Assembly (NCBI GenBank): GCA_021812745.1
Contig: JAKAMS010000051.1
Coordinates: forward strand, 1-11,135
Reading direction: 5' to 3'
DNA: 11,135 nucleotides
From: Bacteroidota bacterium
Lineage (GTDB): Bacteria > Bacteroidota > Ignavibacteria > Ignavibacteriales > Melioribacteraceae
Shown here: piece by piece, positions 3,516-10,680 of the stretch
Position numbering within the stretch: position 1 is the first letter of the stretch
Layout: every line of letters begins with the position of its first letter
Position numbers and translations under genes: made by a program
The notes under the pieces: model-generated
What the model was told of the DNA's origin: nothing
Databases searched by the model: none
The model's input: the letters and a program-made list of their open reading frames with translations, nothing else

Positions 3516-6500
3516 CTAAACCAACTGCATTTTTATGTTACTAATGTAATAGTTTTCCTGGAAATGAATTACTTGTTTTACCGGATCAAAAGCCGTTAGG
3601 TCTGAATCATAAACCGAAAAGAAATATTTCTTTTCTGAAAAATCATCGGTCAAAAAATTATCAATCCATGATTTTCCAATCTCGGTCTGCTTATAATATC
3701 TGTTAACGCTTTTTATCTCTTCAAAAATATCATCAACCGAGTGGTGGTTGAATCCTTTAGAGAAACATCCCGCCAGCATTTCAATCACTTCCCAATTTGA
3801 ATATTCATTCTTTCTATTAATTATTTTATTCGCTTTCTGGATGGTATTATCGCAACGCGTGTATGTTCCTTCTTTTTCAATATGTGTTAATGCCGGTAAA
3901 ACAACATCAGCTTCAAGTGTTGTTTTTGTATTGAAGGAATCGCTCACAAAAAGAAATTCGACATCACTGAAATATTTACGGTAGCTTTCTTCAGCAAAAG
4001 GATCTTCACCAAAAATTAGCACAGCTTTAATTTCGCCGAGCTTCATCTTTTTCTCAAGATCAACTTGCTTAAATATTGGTATTAAATTCCGTCCCCATTT
4101 ATTTCTAATTTTTTCTATCTGATCTAAATCGGAGTGTTTCACATAACCCGGTAAGTAATTTGGCGAAACGCCCATATCCATAAGTCCCGCTGAATTACAA
4201 TTATCGCGCAGAAGAATTATTCCGTTGTCATGCTTATTTATTCTTCCGGTCATTAGCAAAAAGTTAGCAATTGCGCGCAGATCGTTATGTGATTTCTCTC
4301 GCGTGGAATCAATATTATAAATGAATATGAGATTCGAATTTGGATTTTTCACCATCTCGAAGAATCGAATTAATTTTTCACGGTCAATATTGATTATGTT
4401 AATCGCATCTTCCGTATTCAAGTCTAAAAGTTTTTTCTTAAACTCCGCGAACAGTTCCGTTCTCATATTAATGAATTTATTATCAACACAATTATTTTCG
4501 ATACAAATTTTCATTAGCATATCCAGAAGAAGCGTATTCGTTCCTTTTGTAGTATCAATCCACAAATCCGCATGGCGGGTTAATTTAATTTCCGAGGAGT
4601 TTATAACTATTAACAAAGCGCCTCTCTTTTGCGCTTCTTTGATCTTTAGTTCCATTACCAAATTCTCTTCTGATAAATTGGAATTTATAATCACAATCAC
4701 ATCGGCTGATTGTAAGTCATCCATCTTAACCGTAGAAGTGGTCAAACCCAATAAATCGTCTAGAGCATCAAGTTCTTTTTCTTGGAATAAGTTAGATAGA
4801 CTATCAATATTATTATTCATTAAACCAACTCGAACAAATTTTTGAAGCAAGTATAATTCTTCGTTAGAAAGTTTTGGAGATGCAAAGACAGCAACAGAAT
4901 CCTTGCCGTATTTATCCATTATATCTCTAACCCGTTTCTCGGTATAAATAATTGCCTCTTCAGTTTTCACTTCATGCACAAGTCCATTGCGCCTTATGAT
5001 TGGTAAAGTCACGCGGTTTTGATCCATTAGAAAACGGTGGCCGAATTTTCCCTTTATGCAAAGATATCCTTTATTGTGCGAATCGTGAATAGAATTAGTG
5101 GAGTTGGAAACATAGAAAATCTCATCACTTATTTTTTTGAAATTTACTTTGCAACCGACTGAACAGAAACTACAAATGGTTTCATAATTTTGTTTCGGAA
5201 GAGTTCCTAGAATCTTGAAAGGGAATTTTTCACTTATGGCGCCGGTTGGACAGGAGTCTATGCAATTTCCGCATGCAATACAATTTGATTCTATAAGCGC
5301 TTTCTCCATAGCAGGTTTAACTACAGATCTGAATCCGCGATATACAAATCCTAATGCAGAGACTTCTAATATCTCAGAGCAAGTTCTTACGCATTTACCG
5401 CAATTAATGCATTTGTTAGGATCCAATGAAATAAAAGGATGGCGGTTATCAACTAAATATTTTTTTGTTTCGCCGATGTAATTCGAAATATCTAGATCAT
5501 ATTCTTCTCCATATTTTCTGAGTGCACAGTCATAATATTCCGAACAACCGCATTCCAAACAACGTTCACACTCTTTAATTGATTGTAATTCCGTTATTCC
5601 GGATTCTACCTCATCGAAAGTTTTTATACGATCAGTTACATTCAGCTCGGCAAGTTTTTCTCTTGCCATTTTTTTTATATGTGAGAATTCTCTTTCAGAC
5701 AGTTCTCCAAATCTATGTTTGAAGCTCACGAATTTACTTTTAGATACTTTTGCTTTTCCGGTTTCGAGATAACTCATTATTGATTGAGCGGCTTTCTTAC
5801 CTTGCGCTATTGAACTGATTGCCGTTAATGGTCCGGTTACAACATCACCGCCTGCAAATACACCGGGAATTGTTGTCTCAAAAGTGTCTTGGTTTATTGT
5901 AACTGTTCCCCATTTTTCCAATGCAAAGTTTTTATCAAGATCTATAAACGAGGAATCAACTTTCTGTCCGATGGCGCCAATTATAAAATCACAATCAATA
6001 ATATATTCCGATCCCTCGATTGGAACCGGCTGAGGTCTCTCACCATTTTTTTTAGATTCGAGTTTTTGCTTCAAACATTCAATGCCTTTAAGCTTTTTAT
6101 CTTTCGAGATAATTGATTTTGGATTTGTTAAGAAGATAATTTCAACTCCTTCTTTCTGCGCAGCTTCAATTTCTTCATGACTGGCTGGCATTTCTTTGAT
6201 ACTTCTTCTATAGACAATTTTTACATTATCAGCACCGCATCTCAATGCCGTTCTTGCGGCATCAATCGCAGTATTGCCTCCACCCACTATAATTACTGTC
6301 CCAAACAATTTTGGCTTATTGCCCATTTCGACTTCTCGTAAAAAATCTATTCCTTTATAAATGCCTTCAGTAACATCCTCATCTTTTAATCCTATGGTTG
6401 CGGCTTTATGTGCACCTACTCCAACAAAGATAGATTCGTATCCCTCGTAAAGAAGACTGTTGACTGAAAAATCTTTTCCTAATTCCATTCCGGTCTTTTT

Positions 6501-7274
6501 TGAAACACCAAGGTTTAGTATCCAATTAATTTCCTCATCTAATATTTTCTTTGGTAAACGATATTCCGGAATTCCGTATCTCAACATTCCGCCCAGTTCG
6601 GGAAGTTTTTCAAAAATAGTTGGTGAATATCCTTCTAATGTTAAATAATATGCGCACGTTAATCCGGCGGGTCCTCCGCCAATAATTGCTACTTTTTTCT
6701 TGTTTCGAGGTTTTAATTCTGGAATCCACATTTCGGTTTTATCAACGTCGGCTATATACCGTTTCAGATAGTTGCACGCTACCGGCTCATCTACAAGATT
6801 TCTCCGGCAGGCATTTTCGCAATCTCTAACACAAACTCTTCCGATAGATAAAGGTAATGGATTATTTTCTTTTACCAATCTGATTGCATCTTTGTATTTA
6901 CCCATTGATGTAAGTGCGATGTATGCTTGCGCATCTACTCCGGCAGGACAATTTATTTTGCAAGGTCCAAGACAATCTGCATAATGATTTGAGAATAAAA
7001 GTTCTAATGCTGTTTTACGTGAGTTTCTTACTTTTTCATTGTTGGTTACAATCTTCATTCCTTCGCGAATGATTGTCGAACAAGAAGGGACCAATTTATT
7101 GGATCCGTTAACTTCCACAACACAAAGATAACATGACGTAAAATGCTCGGTCCGTTTATCATGACAAAGAGTTGGAATTGTATCTAATTTGTTTTCATGA
7201 ACGGCTTCTAAAATTGTTTTATCCGGATCACAAAAAATTTCTCTTCCGTTGATGGTAACTTTAATTTTTTCCAT
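3516..7274 (-). CDS. Fe-S / GltD-like FAD / degenerate molybdopterin-oxidoreductase fusion subunit
   Basis: A 1252-residue electron-transfer protein. Order: NuoG-like [2Fe-2S] domain (C37, C48, C51, C65); Cys-rich GltD/NfnB-type cluster region (C101, C105, C109; C148, C152, C156, C167); FAD domain with GGGPAG (199-204); NAD(P) domain with GGGNTAIDAARTA (331-343) and R356-R357 after VY, which favours NADP(H); FAD-closing GVFAGGD (471-477); extra Cys motif (C569, C572, C575, C577, C583); two ferredoxin-like [4Fe-4S] motifs (C622/625/628/632 and C665/668/671/675); then an FdhA-like molybdopterin-oxidoreductase region from C701, C704, C708 and C739. In that region the catalytic Cys/Sec-His of formate dehydrogenases is replaced by F830-Q831, and the protein ends without the usual C-terminal pterin-binding domain. 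No H-cluster motif is present. The ATG has AAGGA 7 nt upstream (7282-7286) and lies 21 nt after the NuoF-like gene. Inferred role: large subunit of an NAD(P)H/ferredoxin complex, perhaps bifurcating. Automatic pipelines would probably call it formate dehydrogenase alpha, which the residues do not support. Confidence 0.88.
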   Translation of the reverse strand: MEKIKVTINGREIFCDPDKTILEAVHENKLDTIPTLCHDKRTEHFTSCYLCVVEVNGSNKLVPSCSTIIREGMKIVTNNEKVRNSRKTALELLFSNHYADCLGPCKINCPAGVDAQAYIALTSMGKYKDAIRLVKENNPLPLSIGRVCVRDCENACRRNLVDEPVACNYLKRYIADVDKTEMWIPELKPRNKKKVAIIGGGPAGLTCAYYLTLEGYSPTIFEKLPELGGMLRYGIPEYRLPKKILDEEINWILNLGVSKKTGMELGKDFSVNSLLYEGYESIFVGVGAHKAATIGLKDEDVTEGIYKGIDFLREVEMGNKPKLFGTVIIVGGGNTAIDAARTALRCGADNVKIVYRRSIKEMPASHEEIEAAQKEGVEIIFLTNPKSIISKDKKLKGIECLKQKLESKKNGERPQPVPIEGSEYIIDCDFIIGAIGQKVDSSFIDLDKNFALEKWGTVTINQDTFETTIPGVFAGGDVVTGPLTAISSIAQGKKAAQSIMSYLETGKAKVSKSKFVSFKHRFGELSEREFSHIKKMAREKLAELNVTDRIKTFDEVESGITELQSIKECERCLECGCSEYYDCALRKYGEEYDLDISNYIGETKKYLVDNRHPFISLDPNKCINCGKCVRTCSEILEVSALGFVYRGFRSVVKPAMEKALIESNCIACGNCIDSCPTGAISEKFPFKILGTLPKQNYETICSFCSVGCKVNFKKISDEIFYVSNSTNSIHDSHNKGYLCIKGKFGHRFLMDQNRVTLPIIRRNGLVHEVKTEEAIIYTEKRVRDIMDKYGKDSVAVFASPKLSNEELYLLQKFVRVGLMNNNIDSLSNLFQEKELDALDDLLGLTTSTVKMDDLQSADVIVIINSNLSEENLVMELKIKEAQKRGALLIVINSSEIKLTRHADLWIDTTKGTNTLLLDMLMKICIENNCVDNKFINMRTELFAEFKKKLLDLNTEDAINIINIDREKLIRFFEMVKNPNSNLIFIYNIDSTREKSHNDLRAIANFLLMTGRINKHDNGIILLRDNCNSAGLMDMGVSPNYLPGYVKHSDLDQIEKIRNKWGRNLIPIFKQVDLEKKMKLGEIKAVLIFGEDPFAEESYRKYFSDVEFLFVSDSFNTKTTLEADVVLPALTHIEKEGTYTRCDNTIQKANKIINRKNEYSNWEVIEMLAGCFSKGFNHHSVDDIFEEIKSVNRYYKQTEIGKSWIDNFLTDDFSEKKYFFSVYDSDLTAFDPVKQVIHFQENYYISNIKMQLV

Positions 7275-7295: not shown

Positions 7296-9059
7296 TTAGT
7301 TTTTAATAACAGCATCCAAATTACAGACGTCAAAACAACGCCCGCATTTAATACACAAATCTTGATTGATATGATGAACTGCTTTTTTGCTTCCGGTTAT
7401 GGCATTTGAAGAACATGCTTTGATGCAAAGCATACAACCCTTACATTTTTCTTCATCAATAGTATATTCAATTAACGCAGCGCAATTGTGAGCCGGACAT
7501 TTTTTATCACGGATGTGTACTTCGTATTCTTCTCTAAAATATTTAATAGTTGTTAGAACCGGATTTGGCGCTGTCTGCCCCAATCCGCAGAGACTGCTAT
7601 TCTGAATTTTATAAGCTAAGTCCTCTAATAATTCTATATCACCGCCCTTTCCGTTTCCATCAGTAATCCGTTCGAGTATTTCCAACATTCTTTTTGTTCC
7701 AATTCTGCAGAATGTACATTTGCCGCACGATTCATTTTGAGTGAAGTTCAAAAAATATCTGGCAAGATCAACCATGCAAGTTGTTTCATCCAGAACGATC
7801 AATCCGCCGGAGCCCATTATGGCGCCGGTGCGGACAATTTCATCGTAATCAATTTTTAGATCGCCCATACTAGCGGGAATGCAACCACCGGAAGGTCCTC
7901 CCATTTGAACAGCTTTAAATTTTTTATCATTCTTAATTCCGCCGCCGAGATCAAAAACAATTTGATTTATAGTCATACCCATCGGCACTTCAACCAAACC
8001 GCTTCTTTTAATTTTTCCGGCGAGGGCAAAAACTTTGGTCCCTTTACTCTTTTCCGTTCCAAGCAAAGCATATTCTTGCCAGCCGTTATTAATTATCCAA
8101 GGAACATTTGCAAATGTTTCTACATTGTTAATGTTGGTTGGTTTGCCCCATAATCCTTTATGAGCCGGAAACGGCGGACGAATTCTCGGCACCCCTCTTT
8201 TCCCTTCTATTGACGACATCAAAGCGGTTTCTTCTCCGCATACAAATGCACCGGCGCCTTCTTTTATTTTTATCTTAAAGCTGAAGTCCGAACCGAAAAT
8301 ATTTTTTCCAAGAAAATTTTCAGCTTCACATTGTTTGATAGCATTTCTCAATCTTTTTATTGCAAGAGGATATTCCGCTCTACAATAGATATAACCCTCA
8401 TCTGAACCAATAGCATATGCTGCAATCATCATCCCTTCAAGAACAGAATGAGGATCGCCTTCCAATACACTCCGGTCCATAAATGCACCCGGATCGCCTT
8501 CATCTGCATTGCAGATAAGATATTTTTTATCACTCTTTTCTTGATAAGCGAATTTCCATTTTTGTCCTGTTGAAAATCCTGCACCACCGCGACCCCGTAA
8601 ACCGGATTTAATTATTAATTCAATAACTTCTTCTCGAGATTGACTTTTGATAACTGTTTGAATCGCTTTGTAGCCATCATACTTTATATATTCGTCTATT
8701 GAGGTCGGATCAATTACACCGCAATTTCTTAAGACAATTCTTTTTTGATTTTTTAGAAACGCATCTTCCTTGGAAATATCTTTGCTCTTAATTATCCATT
8801 CACTAACCGGACTGTTGTTGATCAAGTGTTCGTTTACTATTCTTCCGACTCGGTCAGTTGTTACATTTGAATAAAGCGAGCTGTTTCCGTTATCAACAAT
8901 TTCAACGAGCACTTCTTTATAGCACATTCCCATGCATCCTGTTTCTTTAAGCTGAACATTCAAGCTCCTTGAATCTATTTCATCTTTAAATTTGTTATAG
9001 ACTAATTCACCTCCGGCGGATATTCCGCACGTACCCAAGCCAACTTTAATTTGCTTCAT
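7296..9059 (-). CDS. NuoF/HydB-like NADH-binding flavoprotein subunit with C-terminal ferredoxin domain
   Basis: 587 residues. An N-terminal thioredoxin-fold ferredoxin-like domain (1-80) has only C11, C42 and C46; the place of the expected fourth Cys is G16, so its cluster may be lost or altered. The NuoF core follows: FMN/NADH-binding GLRGRGGAGFSTG (153-165), NADEGDPGAFMDR (184-196), GAGAFVCGEETAL (268-280), and the N3-type [4Fe-4S] ligands C445, C448, C451 and C491. The C-terminus adds a Cx4C pair (C521, C526) and two [4Fe-4S] motifs (C539/542/545/549 and C569/572/575/579). These additions mark the HydB/HndC type of soluble hydrogenase and bifurcating complexes rather than complex I NuoF. 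Its ATG overlaps the stop of the NuoE-like gene by 4 nt (ATGA, 9056-9059), so the two are translationally coupled. Expected role: hydride exchange with NADH at FMN and electron transfer to the large fusion subunit encoded next. Confidence 0.93.
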   Translation of the reverse strand: MKQIKVGLGTCGISAGGELVYNKFKDEIDSRSLNVQLKETGCMGMCYKEVLVEIVDNGNSSLYSNVTTDRVGRIVNEHLINNSPVSEWIIKSKDISKEDAFLKNQKRIVLRNCGVIDPTSIDEYIKYDGYKAIQTVIKSQSREEVIELIIKSGLRGRGGAGFSTGQKWKFAYQEKSDKKYLICNADEGDPGAFMDRSVLEGDPHSVLEGMMIAAYAIGSDEGYIYCRAEYPLAIKRLRNAIKQCEAENFLGKNIFGSDFSFKIKIKEGAGAFVCGEETALMSSIEGKRGVPRIRPPFPAHKGLWGKPTNINNVETFANVPWIINNGWQEYALLGTEKSKGTKVFALAGKIKRSGLVEVPMGMTINQIVFDLGGGIKNDKKFKAVQMGGPSGGCIPASMGDLKIDYDEIVRTGAIMGSGGLIVLDETTCMVDLARYFLNFTQNESCGKCTFCRIGTKRMLEILERITDGNGKGGDIELLEDLAYKIQNSSLCGLGQTAPNPVLTTIKYFREEYEVHIRDKKCPAHNCAALIEYTIDEEKCKGCMLCIKACSSNAITGSKKAVHHINQDLCIKCGRCFDVCNLDAVIKN

Positions 9060-9562
9060 GACGCTTCTCTATACTGTTCTTCGGATTTGTATTTCTTGAC
9101 AATCTTTTTGAGTTTATCAGTTGTTAGGTTACCGTGAGTTGAGTTATTTATCATTATAACCGGTGCCAAAGAACAGCATCCCAGACACGCAACGGACTGC
9201 AGACTGAAAATCCCATCGTCTGTAGTTTCGCCGACTGTAATTCCGAGTTCATCTTGCAAAACAGATAGGATGCTTTTTGCACCGTTAACATGGCAAGCTG
9301 TTCCTTCACAAATGCGAATTAAATTTTTACCTAACGGTTTTAATCTGAATTGCGAATAAAAAGTTATAACACCGTAAATATCCGCCGCCGGGATGTTGAC
9401 CAATTCGCTGATATAGTAGATTATTTTTTCAGGAATGTACCCATAAGAATCCTGAGCTGATTGAAGCAACGGGATTAAAGAACCGTTTTGATGTCTCTTG
9501 TTGATTAAGTCAATCTTGAAATCAAGAATGCCAGGTTTTTCTTGAATATCTGCAACCGACAT
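9056..9562 (-). CDS. NuoE/HydC-like [2Fe-2S] subunit
   Basis: 168 residues from the chosen ATG at 9560-9562. An N-terminal helical domain contains the family-typical 'GYIPEKII' and 'IYGVITFYSQF' segments. It is followed by a thioredoxin-like fold holding a [2Fe-2S] cluster with ligands C85, C90, C126 and C130 (CEGTAC and CLGCC motifs). Length and motifs match the 24-kDa subunit of complex I and HydC of soluble hydrogenases. A TTG codon at 9587-9589 is an upstream in-frame alternative, but the strong AGGGG at 9570-9574 sits 7 nt before the ATG and lies inside the longer version, so the ATG is preferred. It is the first gene of a five-gene run with the NuoF-like, fusion, kinase and regulator genes. 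Expected role: relays electrons to or from the FMN subunit, with which it forms a tight pair. Confidence 0.94.
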   Translation of the reverse strand: MSVADIQEKPGILDFKIDLINKRHQNGSLIPLLQSAQDSYGYIPEKIIYYISELVNIPAADIYGVITFYSQFRLKPLGKNLIRICEGTACHVNGAKSILSVLQDELGITVGETTDDGIFSLQSVACLGCCSLAPVIMINNSTHGNLTTDKLKKIVKKYKSEEQYREAS

Positions 9563-9569
9563 AATGTTT

Positions 9570-9574
9570 CCCCT
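9570..9574 (-). promoter_or_regulatory. Ribosome binding site that fixes the NuoE-like start
   Basis: AGGGG on the minus strand lies 7 nt upstream of the ATG at 9562. It favours this start over the in-frame TTG 27 nt further upstream, which has no purine-rich site before it but instead a U-rich terminator tail. Confidence 0.7.
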
Positions 9575-9597
9575 ATAATTATTTAGCAACCCATTTC

Positions 9598-9684: not shown

Positions 9685-10680
9685 TTACATCTCATAAATA
9701 TTTATTATTGGGTACTTCTTAATTTTTATAATTCCGTTCATGTTGACTAATTTATTTTCAATGAACTTATCTATCTGACTGAATTGTGATCCACTTACCA
9801 TCATCACCATATTATATCTGCCGTTTATAAAATCGCAGTAGACAATATTCTCTGTTAGTTTTAAGATCGGATAGATGTCTTGAATTTTTTCCCGTTCCAC
9901 TTCTACTAAGACATAAGAGCAGACTGAATGCTTTGAATCTCTCACAACGCCGGAATTTGGAATTTCTGTTGATAGTGAAATACCAGCAGAGTTGATAATA
10001 TCTTTTATGTTTTCATTTAGAACCGGTACATCTACCGGCAAGAACTCCGCACCTTTTAATCCATCCATTACTTTAACTTCTTTCTCAAAAATTTCTTTGC
10101 AAGCATCAATTGTTTCTGCTTGCACCAGCAGAAAAATATCAATATCGCCCCGTGTTGCATCGCAATACAAAACGTTTTCCATTGCATATAACTTTTTGTA
10201 GATATCGAAAAAGTCAGCTTTCTCATCAATCTTTAGAAGCATGTATGCCGCGGCAGTTCTTGTTTCATCTATTGTGGTATGAGATTTAACCGGCTGTTTC
10301 GGTTGCTTATCTAAAATTTTGTTTATCTCTTCCATCAGTTCGTCTGCATCGAAAGGTTTTTCAAGGAATGCATCTACTTTCAAATCATCAATTTCGGTTT
10401 CCTCTAATTTATCCGCATAACCGGTAATGTAGATCATCGAAGTATTAGGATATTTTGCTTTAATGATCTTACCGAGCTTTATTCCATCAATATCAGGCAA
10501 TTGTATATCGAGAACGATTGTGTCCAGATTTACTTCATTCTTCTGATACAGGTCAATTTTGTTCAATGCGCTGATTCCGTTTTCGCAAAGTTCAACATCA
10601 ACTCCTCTCTGATTCAGACCAATCGAAATAGACCTTCGTAAAGACGGTTCATCATCAATTAATAAAATTCTCTTTGACAT
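9685..10680 (-). CDS. Response regulator with two C-terminal Lrp/AsnC-like (RAM) domains
   Basis: 331 residues. The receiver domain (about 1-123) has D9/D10, phospho-acceptor D58 in IVLDIQLPD, switch T86 and K108-P109, all intact. After a linker (124-142) come two related alpha/beta domains at about 144-218 and 254-327. They share the pattern E-N-[VI]-[LV]-Y-C-D near the middle (169-174 and 277-283) and a beta-alpha-beta-beta-alpha-beta layout like the ligand-binding domain of Lrp/AsnC regulators. No helix-turn-helix, AAA+, GGDEF or other known output is visible, so it probably acts by protein contact or oligomer change, possibly also binding a small molecule. The ATG has GGAGG 9 nt upstream (10690-10694). 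It is separated from the redox operon by a strong terminator, and no partner kinase is adjacent unless the kinase at 1642-3510 serves both. The RAM-like call is by pattern, not by search. Confidence 0.8.
   Translation of the reverse strand: MSKRILLIDDEPSLRRSISIGLNQRGVDVELCENGISALNKIDLYQKNEVNLDTIVLDIQLPDIDGIKLGKIIKAKYPNTSMIYITGYADKLEETEIDDLKVDAFLEKPFDADELMEEINKILDKQPKQPVKSHTTIDETRTAAAYMLLKIDEKADFFDIYKKLYAMENVLYCDATRGDIDIFLLVQAETIDACKEIFEKEVKVMDGLKGAEFLPVDVPVLNENIKDIINSAGISLSTEIPNSGVVRDSKHSVCSYVLVEVEREKIQDIYPILKLTENIVYCDFINGRYNMVMMVSGSQFSQIDKFIENKLVNMNGIIKIKKYPIINIYEM

Follow-up and report, generated by a model that had tools for sequence, protein, structure and literature searches.

Gene organisation of the locus

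The window (that is, the whole stretch of 11,135 nucleotides analysed here) carries six close-packed genes, all on the minus strand (Table 1). The gaps between successive genes, counted from the first gene onward, are 95, -4, 21, 5 and 2 nt, and judging from strand and spacing the six genes would be transcribed as a single operon. A search of the window for a sigma-54 promoter gave no candidate with at most one mismatch, a result that says little since 0.56 such sites are expected by chance.

Table 1. Genes and features predicted in the window
Feature	Coordinates	Strand	Profile or structure matches	Remark
Receiver protein with two Lrp/AsnC ligand-binding domains	9685..10680	-	PF00072, PF01037 (2 stretches)	First gene of the cassette
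StnA, NuoE-like, thioredoxin-fold [2Fe-2S]	9056..9589	-	PF01257; NF005722
StnB, NuoF-like	7296..9059	-	PF01512, PF10589, PF00037 (2 stretches)
StnC, 1252 aa	3516..7274	-	Pfam domains; PDB 9bov_A, 8oh5_C
FdhA-like domain, StnC residues 698-1252	3519..5183	-	TIGR01591 positions 1-505 of 672; PF01568 absent
N-L-F-Q, StnC residues 828-831	4782..4793	-		Place of catalytic R-L-[C/U]-H
Histidine kinase, 622 aa	1642..3510	-	HisKA, HATPase_c	Begins 5 nt past stnC
NtrC-type sigma-54 response regulator, 460 aa	257..1639	-	PF00158, PF00072, PF02954

The three genes in the middle of the cluster encode the putative enzyme. StnA scored 157.7 against NF005722, above its cut-off of 141, and has the four [2Fe-2S] ligands (Cys 94, 99, 135 and 139), while StnB, on the basis of its domains and Cys positions, combines an FMN/NAD domain with an N3-type cluster (Cys 445/448/451/491) and a C-terminal 2x[4Fe-4S] part. 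In StnC a [2Fe-2S] domain is followed by a GltD/NfnB-like NADPH-FAD part, 2x[4Fe-4S] and the FdhA-like domain.

With respect to the predicted regulators, no DNA-binding domain was found by Pfam in the receiver-AsnC protein, and nothing more appeared at E-values up to 5; its gene also lies upstream of stnA in relatives. Each of its AsnC domains has one kept Cys-Asp pair (at C173 and C282), and both cysteines are present in 17 of 18 aligned rows, the window counted. The kinase has a PAS-like region, where the PAS profile matches fall below their cut-offs. Within this region Cys297, Cys308 and Cys311 (C-x10-C-x2-C) are kept, together with Cys123, in 14 of 15 rows (window counted), and these residues are a possible redox or metal site.

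Relationship to Stn and Nfn-Bfu transhydrogenases

The best PDB matches over most of the StnC length were NfnABC (9bov_A, 871.8 bits), which belongs with 9bp5 to the Nfn-Bfu type, and StnC of Sporomusa ovata (8oh5_C, 745 bits). As in these systems, genes for a NuoE-like protein, a NuoF-like protein and a NuoG-GltD fusion are adjacent. The similarity to S. ovata StnABC (8oh5, 8oh9) extends to the three subunits, the StnC domain order, the Fe-S ligands and the equivalents of S. ovata K170 and R239 (K171 and R239 in the window); moreover, the FMN domain and C-terminal ferredoxin-site clusters of StnB and the [2Fe-2S] cluster of StnA were recognised from domains and Cys positions. The window is thus predicted to encode a Stn-type or Nfn-Bfu electron-bifurcating transhydrogenase. 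According to the available text of PMC9304861, Nfn-Bfu was already known from Bacteroidetes among others (Bfu clade 53).

To assess conservation we aligned the window protein with the best 120 of 689 relatives found (121 rows in total); the closest relative among the matches listed is 88% identical to window StnC. For each of the seven clusters expected in StnC, the columns of the Cys ligands contain gaps and zero substitutions, and the same holds for K171 and R239. One residue near the proximal cluster is different from S. ovata, for which the available text of PMC10482914 proposes that C114 and K170 alternate at this cluster. The equivalent of C114 is Ala in the window (A115, 6930-6932), while K171 is kept (6762-6764); across the 121 rows the C114 position reads Ala in 80, Val in 31 and Cys in one, with Lys in all 119 rows that are ungapped at its own position. 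Among the loci examined (see below), Cys at this position is found mainly in Bacillota, in 13 of 15 Bacillota rows and in 14 of 51 fused rows overall. Since the equivalent of C114 is Ala, the proposed Cys/Lys switch cannot work alike in the window protein, and its gating may therefore be different from that of S. ovata.

The FdhA-like domain: kept cluster ligands, lost catalytic site

The earlier note, made by eye, had placed a formate dehydrogenase-like region from about residue 698 onward, with a Cys cluster and characteristic motifs, and this is borne out: residues 699-1198 match positions 1-505 of 672 of TIGR01591 (Fdh-alpha), and the cluster ligands C701, C704, C708 and C739 as well as GYLCIKG, DMGVSPNYLPGY and EADVVLPALTHIEKEGTYT are present. 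In alignments to E. coli FdhF and to an F420-dependent FDH, F830 occupies the place of Sec and Q831 that of His, such that the reading of N-L-F-Q in place of R-L-[C/U]-H also holds, with L-F-Q at 4782-4790. Equally, the protein does stop before the last pterin-binding domain, as had been claimed: PF01568 was absent from the Pfam scan, and the tail beyond the column of residue 1197 amounts to 55 aa, compared with 167-177 aa in five related fusions that keep the catalytic pair (see below). A hidden remainder past the stnC stop could be ruled out, in agreement with the note, as the kinase open reading frame starts 5 nt further on. The window protein accordingly differs from active FDH alpha subunits in the catalytic Cys/Sec, in PF01568 and in its TIGR01591 score (359.8 bits, cut-off 666.25). 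Neither does it reach the cut-off of the NuoG equivalog TIGR01973 (269.6 against 470.05 bits). It shares with NuoG of complex I a MopB fold without catalytic Cys/Sec as well as Fer2 and Fer4_Nqo3 parts; the difference is the GltD domain, which NuoG is not known to have and which was absent from the two NuoG proteins examined.

The YjgC-type oxidoreductases 8rqz and 9gzq read Cys-Gln at the catalytic pair, likewise P0179-P0181, and Gln at the place of His is for this reason no mark of loss when taken alone; the argument rests instead on the missing Cys/Sec, the missing Arg and the missing last domain. None of the 121 rows carries Cys or Sec at 830 or His at 831, whereas C701, C704, C708 and C739 are Cys in 121/121, and the loss of the motif is therefore not due to chance or sequencing error. 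Residue 830 is L in 62, F in 30 and I in 11 rows, and residue 831 is Y in 65, Q in 19 and N in 11. Hence Phe-Gln, whose conservation the earlier note had wanted checked, is not conserved, as is expected for a site that is no longer used.

For a view of the whole domain, columns that are at least 93% uniform in 16 pair-bearing sequences were scored as kept (residue present in at least 80% of rows) or lost (in less than 20%) in a 29-row window group, which gave 36 kept and 42 lost FDH-uniform columns. Among the lost ones are R828, C830, H831 and Q1025, as well as the end of the last domain; the cluster ligands are kept, as are K741 and R1023 (in most rows) and other FDH residues. The window domain alone scored 231.8 bits with the F420-dependent FDH, compared with 177.9 for NfnABC 9bov_A and 139.9 for 8oh5_C. 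On these alignments the FDH core is better preserved in the window group than in S. ovata StnC. The short tail is common to the window, S. ovata StnC and the Bacillota loci, whereas the catalytic loop is deleted in S. ovata and Bacillota StnC and is present but substituted in the window branch. Taken together, the Mo/W pterin has most likely been lost and the pterin site of the window protein would be empty; given K741, R1023, the other FDH residues and the FDH-leaning score, some residual pterin binding is conceivable.

Relatives that keep the catalytic pair and the age of the loss

A scan of genome contigs with one protein as query found zero relatives. We refer to a profile scan made with the relatives' alignment, from which the best 80 of at least 599 matched stretches were used as loci. 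The Cys/Sec-His pair is missing in 75 of these 80 loci and present in five; among the 75, L027 has Cys without His and L041 has His without Cys. The five pair-bearing FdhA fusions (L012:10001-14080, L024:10001-14110, L014:1156-5355, L055:10004-14188 and L069:9869-14122) have the same [2Fe-2S]-GltD-4Fe-4S front as StnC, are 1359-1417 aa long and keep CARL[C/U]H; in two of them an in-frame TGA is positioned exactly at the Sec place (CARL-TGA-H). The three full-length fusions of the Cys type that were scanned (L014, L055 and L069) all contain PF01568, with the tails of L012 and L024 judged by length alone, and the TIGR01591 cut-off is passed by L069 (840.2) and L014 (822.4).

None of the five has a StnA or StnB match in its locus (for L014 the upstream sequence amounts to just 1.2 kb). 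Four are situated near one-carbon (Wood-Ljungdahl-type) genes: genes for acetyl-CoA synthase and corrinoid protein are close to L012, L024 and L069, and a folD-like gene adjoins L014; the single L055 neighbour checked is a rhomboid protein. These fusions are probably pyridine-nucleotide-linked formate dehydrogenases. Homologues with the same layout that keep Cys/Sec-His, which the earlier note had named as evidence against its reading, thus exist (5 of the best 80 of at least 599), but they share with StnC the N-terminal layout and differ in catalytic pair, length and the lack of a StnA/StnB match. They hint at the origin of the domain, and do not thereby make the window copy active, because they are longer, placed elsewhere and without StnA/StnB.

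For the domain we computed a quick tree of 88 rows (SH-aLRT without bootstrap): 10 of the 121 window-group rows (window included), 46 of the 80 loci, and 32 rows of FDH, NuoG and nitrate reductase that we selected by hand and assigned to groups ourselves. The other 34 loci were discarded manually because they were near copies, truncated or badly aligned, and S. ovata StnC is not among the rows. Of the 19 rows labelled FDH, eight are without Cys-His (P0177, P0179 with Cys-Gln, P0182, P0183, P0184, P0196, P0203 and P0206). In this tree 50 of the 51 StnC-type rows group in a single clade (SH-aLRT 100) with the five pair-bearing fusions outside, which makes the loss an old one. The loss would consequently be common to the whole StnC clade and not specific to the window; a recent or window-specific loss is ruled out by the absence of the pair from all 121 rows together with the domain tree.

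The tree does not sustain the claim of a second loss, independent of that in NuoG: NuoG and other Cys-less rows are nearer the StnC clade than the pair-bearing fusions are, which may reflect history or long-branch attraction, and a topology constrained to unite StnC with the five fusions is 10.9 log units worse but not rejected by the AU test (p-AU 0.305). A second tree, computed from 68 rows of the GltD part, sets the fused proteins apart from five ordinary GltD proteins (support 100), with two long-branched GltD-like rows placed among the fused ones; the pair-bearing fusions are located near its base and do not group as a single clade. The pair-bearing fusions, together with the fuller FDH core in the window group, mean that a route between a nucleotide-linked formate dehydrogenase and a transhydrogenase can be traced.

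Molybdenum cofactor genes in genomes with the cassette

Eight genomes, chosen for carrying the six-gene cassette and identical with those of the eight complete larger regions described below, were scanned with profiles for Mo-cofactor genes: MoeA was found in three, the MoaA C-terminal domain in two and MoaC in two, with all three profiles silent in five of the eight (G090, G443, G419, G184 and G275). The control profile RecA was found in 8/8, and each Mo-cofactor profile was positive in 11 of 14 control genomes. G090 and G443, both without a Mo-cofactor match, encode other MopB proteins (733 aa, and frames of 552 and 1028 aa, respectively), and for this reason the missing genes may represent assembly gaps in these two. 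NuoG and Qrc kinds are not known to carry a pterin, and the remaining MopB matches in G419 and G184 are to NuoG, in G419 also to a protein nearest the Qrc models (under their cut-offs); region L154, from the MopB search in G275, contains no open reading frame of 300 aa. The genome of the closest relative, G454, has all three Mo-cofactor genes and another MopB protein (744 aa).

Distribution of the six-gene regulator cassette

The full six-gene order was found in six of the best 80 of at least 599 loci, and these belong to a Bacteroidota MAG (L001), Coatesbacteria (L002), Aminicenantes (L003), Krumholzibacteriota (L006), an unassigned bacterium (L008) and Thermodesulfobacteriota (L010). In L027 (Elusimicrobia) genes one to four are present along with a short open reading frame (271 aa) resembling a kinase, with no sigma-54 regulator match in the remaining 1.4 kb, while in L005, L009, L021 and L038 the receiver-AsnC gene and stnABC occur with no kinase next to them (the last two loci end inside stnC). 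In most of the 80 loci stnC is without an adjacent kinase match. Among short loci, the kinase follows stnC in 10 of 32, the identity to the window protein being 49% or higher in every case; from a set of 30 short loci, 24 (L087-L110) proved to encode GltD-like proteins that have no FdhA part, and these were excluded from there on.

We also considered 15 larger regions from genomes in the class of G184, itself drawn from the phylum of the L001 genome (L085 and L001 are the same genome). All six genes are present in eight of these 15, which were picked from 37 matching genomes of 294 searched, mostly the closest, and are not a random sample; L146 begins inside stnB and has the rest. The kinase pair is missing, with ample flank, in L144, L147, L148, L149 and L151 (L150 ends 0.8 kb past stnC and was not counted), and L147 and L148 show a weak receiver-AsnC match upstream of stnA. 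Where a kinase is adjacent, it is separated from stnC by -1 to 203 nt. No neighbour family beyond the cassette recurs in more than four of 14 loci compared, and with such variable flanks the six genes look like one unit.

Literature searches returned no paper linking Stn with such regulators. In the available text of PMC7483475 and PMC10482914 the terms "two-component" and "regulator" are absent, "kinase" occurring in PMC7483475 solely as acetate kinase, and "kinase" and "two-component" are likewise absent from that of PMC9304861 (on Nfn-Bfu). The presence of a six-gene regulator cassette across several phyla therefore looks new.

Proposed function of the complex and its FdhA-like domain

Our favoured interpretation, which we hold with considerable confidence, is a Stn-type bifurcating transhydrogenase provided with its own regulators, in which the FdhA-like domain is inherited, has lost its formate chemistry and holds the complex together. 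By homology to S. ovata, NADPH would reduce the FAD of the GltD-like part of StnC, and the electrons would then travel along the Fe-S clusters to the FMN of StnB before being divided between NAD+ and ferredoxin, StnA acting as the moving gate, or the flow would take the reverse direction. The inherited formate dehydrogenase module would have kept its [4Fe-4S] cluster and fold because these hold the complex together. Both this electron path and the scaffold role are carried over from the S. ovata homologue, whose StnC is described in the available text of PMC10482914 as having a catalytically inactive FdhF domain, with clusters C1/C2 as a non-functional electron-transfer branch. Deletion of that domain or exchange of C1/C2 ligands yielded no active or properly assembled complex, loss of the ligands blocked tetramer formation, and the authors conclude that the domain has a role in stability or assembly (PMC10482914, available text). 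Purified Stn did not oxidise formate, according to the part of PMC7483475 available. The window domain resembles its S. ovata counterpart in being without the catalytic residues, and as a dead domain is already in print for S. ovata StnC, the one reported here is not a novelty. The note had further suggested that the domain is kept as a scaffold or a wire; the former agrees with the S. ovata mutants, whereas the latter does not, C1/C2 being off the path (PMC10482914, available text).

The dead FdhA-like domain being mostly explained by the known homologue, the regulator cassette is the part worth following. The two-component pair might control the cluster or other redox genes, and the six-gene organisation suggests how cells may sense and set the balance of NADPH, NADH and ferredoxin. 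To our knowledge little is known about how this is done for bifurcating enzymes.

A different use of the same genes would be as a redox sensor, in which StnABC reads the NADPH/NADH/ferredoxin balance and the catalysis-free FdhA-like domain docks the downstream kinase; the cofactor-free complex of the window branch would then be a signalling device that reports on that balance directly through a kinase and a sigma-54 regulator dedicated to it. The complete gene order in six of the best 80 of at least 599 loci and in eight of the 15 larger regions, the close stnC-kinase spacing and the kept kinase cysteines are compatible with it. We nevertheless think it improbable, for every enzyme residue checked is kept, which fits a working enzyme, genes sharing a cluster are often merely co-regulated, and the adjacent kinase is missing from most of the 80 loci as well as from the five larger regions named above.

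Alternatively, the domain might form a second electron wire or exit branch, with a partner protein at the C701/704/708/739 cluster. In S. ovata, however, the C1/C2 branch is described as lying outside the electron path and is linked with assembly or stability (PMC10482914, available text). Even with the four ligands invariant as Cys in 121/121 rows, which speaks in its favour, we regard such a wire as less probable still than the sensor. Finally, an enzyme that binds pterin and works without Cys/Sec could draw on the several FDH core residues retained, on the Gln for His of YjgC-type proteins and on acetylene hydratase, a relative of the FDH fold that does other chemistry (and a weak match to the window domain), but with Cys/Sec, Arg and the last pterin-binding domain gone, residues 830 and 831 varying freely and the three Mo-cofactor profiles silent in five of eight cassette genomes, it is very improbable.

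Additional observations

A Myxococcota GltD-FdhA fusion (L041:9995-13708) reads Ser-His at the catalytic place, has no StnA/StnB match and branches outside the StnC clade in the domain tree. The cassette-bearing genome of L010 also encodes a GltD-FdhA relative (G005:C499:2108-5713) whose open frame of 1381 aa includes one in-frame TGA. A plasmid search returned 1068 records, two of them covering at least 80% of the query, with Acetoanaerobium and Photobacterium in the top two rows. Near the cassette, L003, L142 and L143 have an NfnA-like gene next to one resembling GltD, and L138-L140 contain genes similar to those for transketolase and 6-phosphogluconate dehydrogenase, all of these being named by sequence and size.
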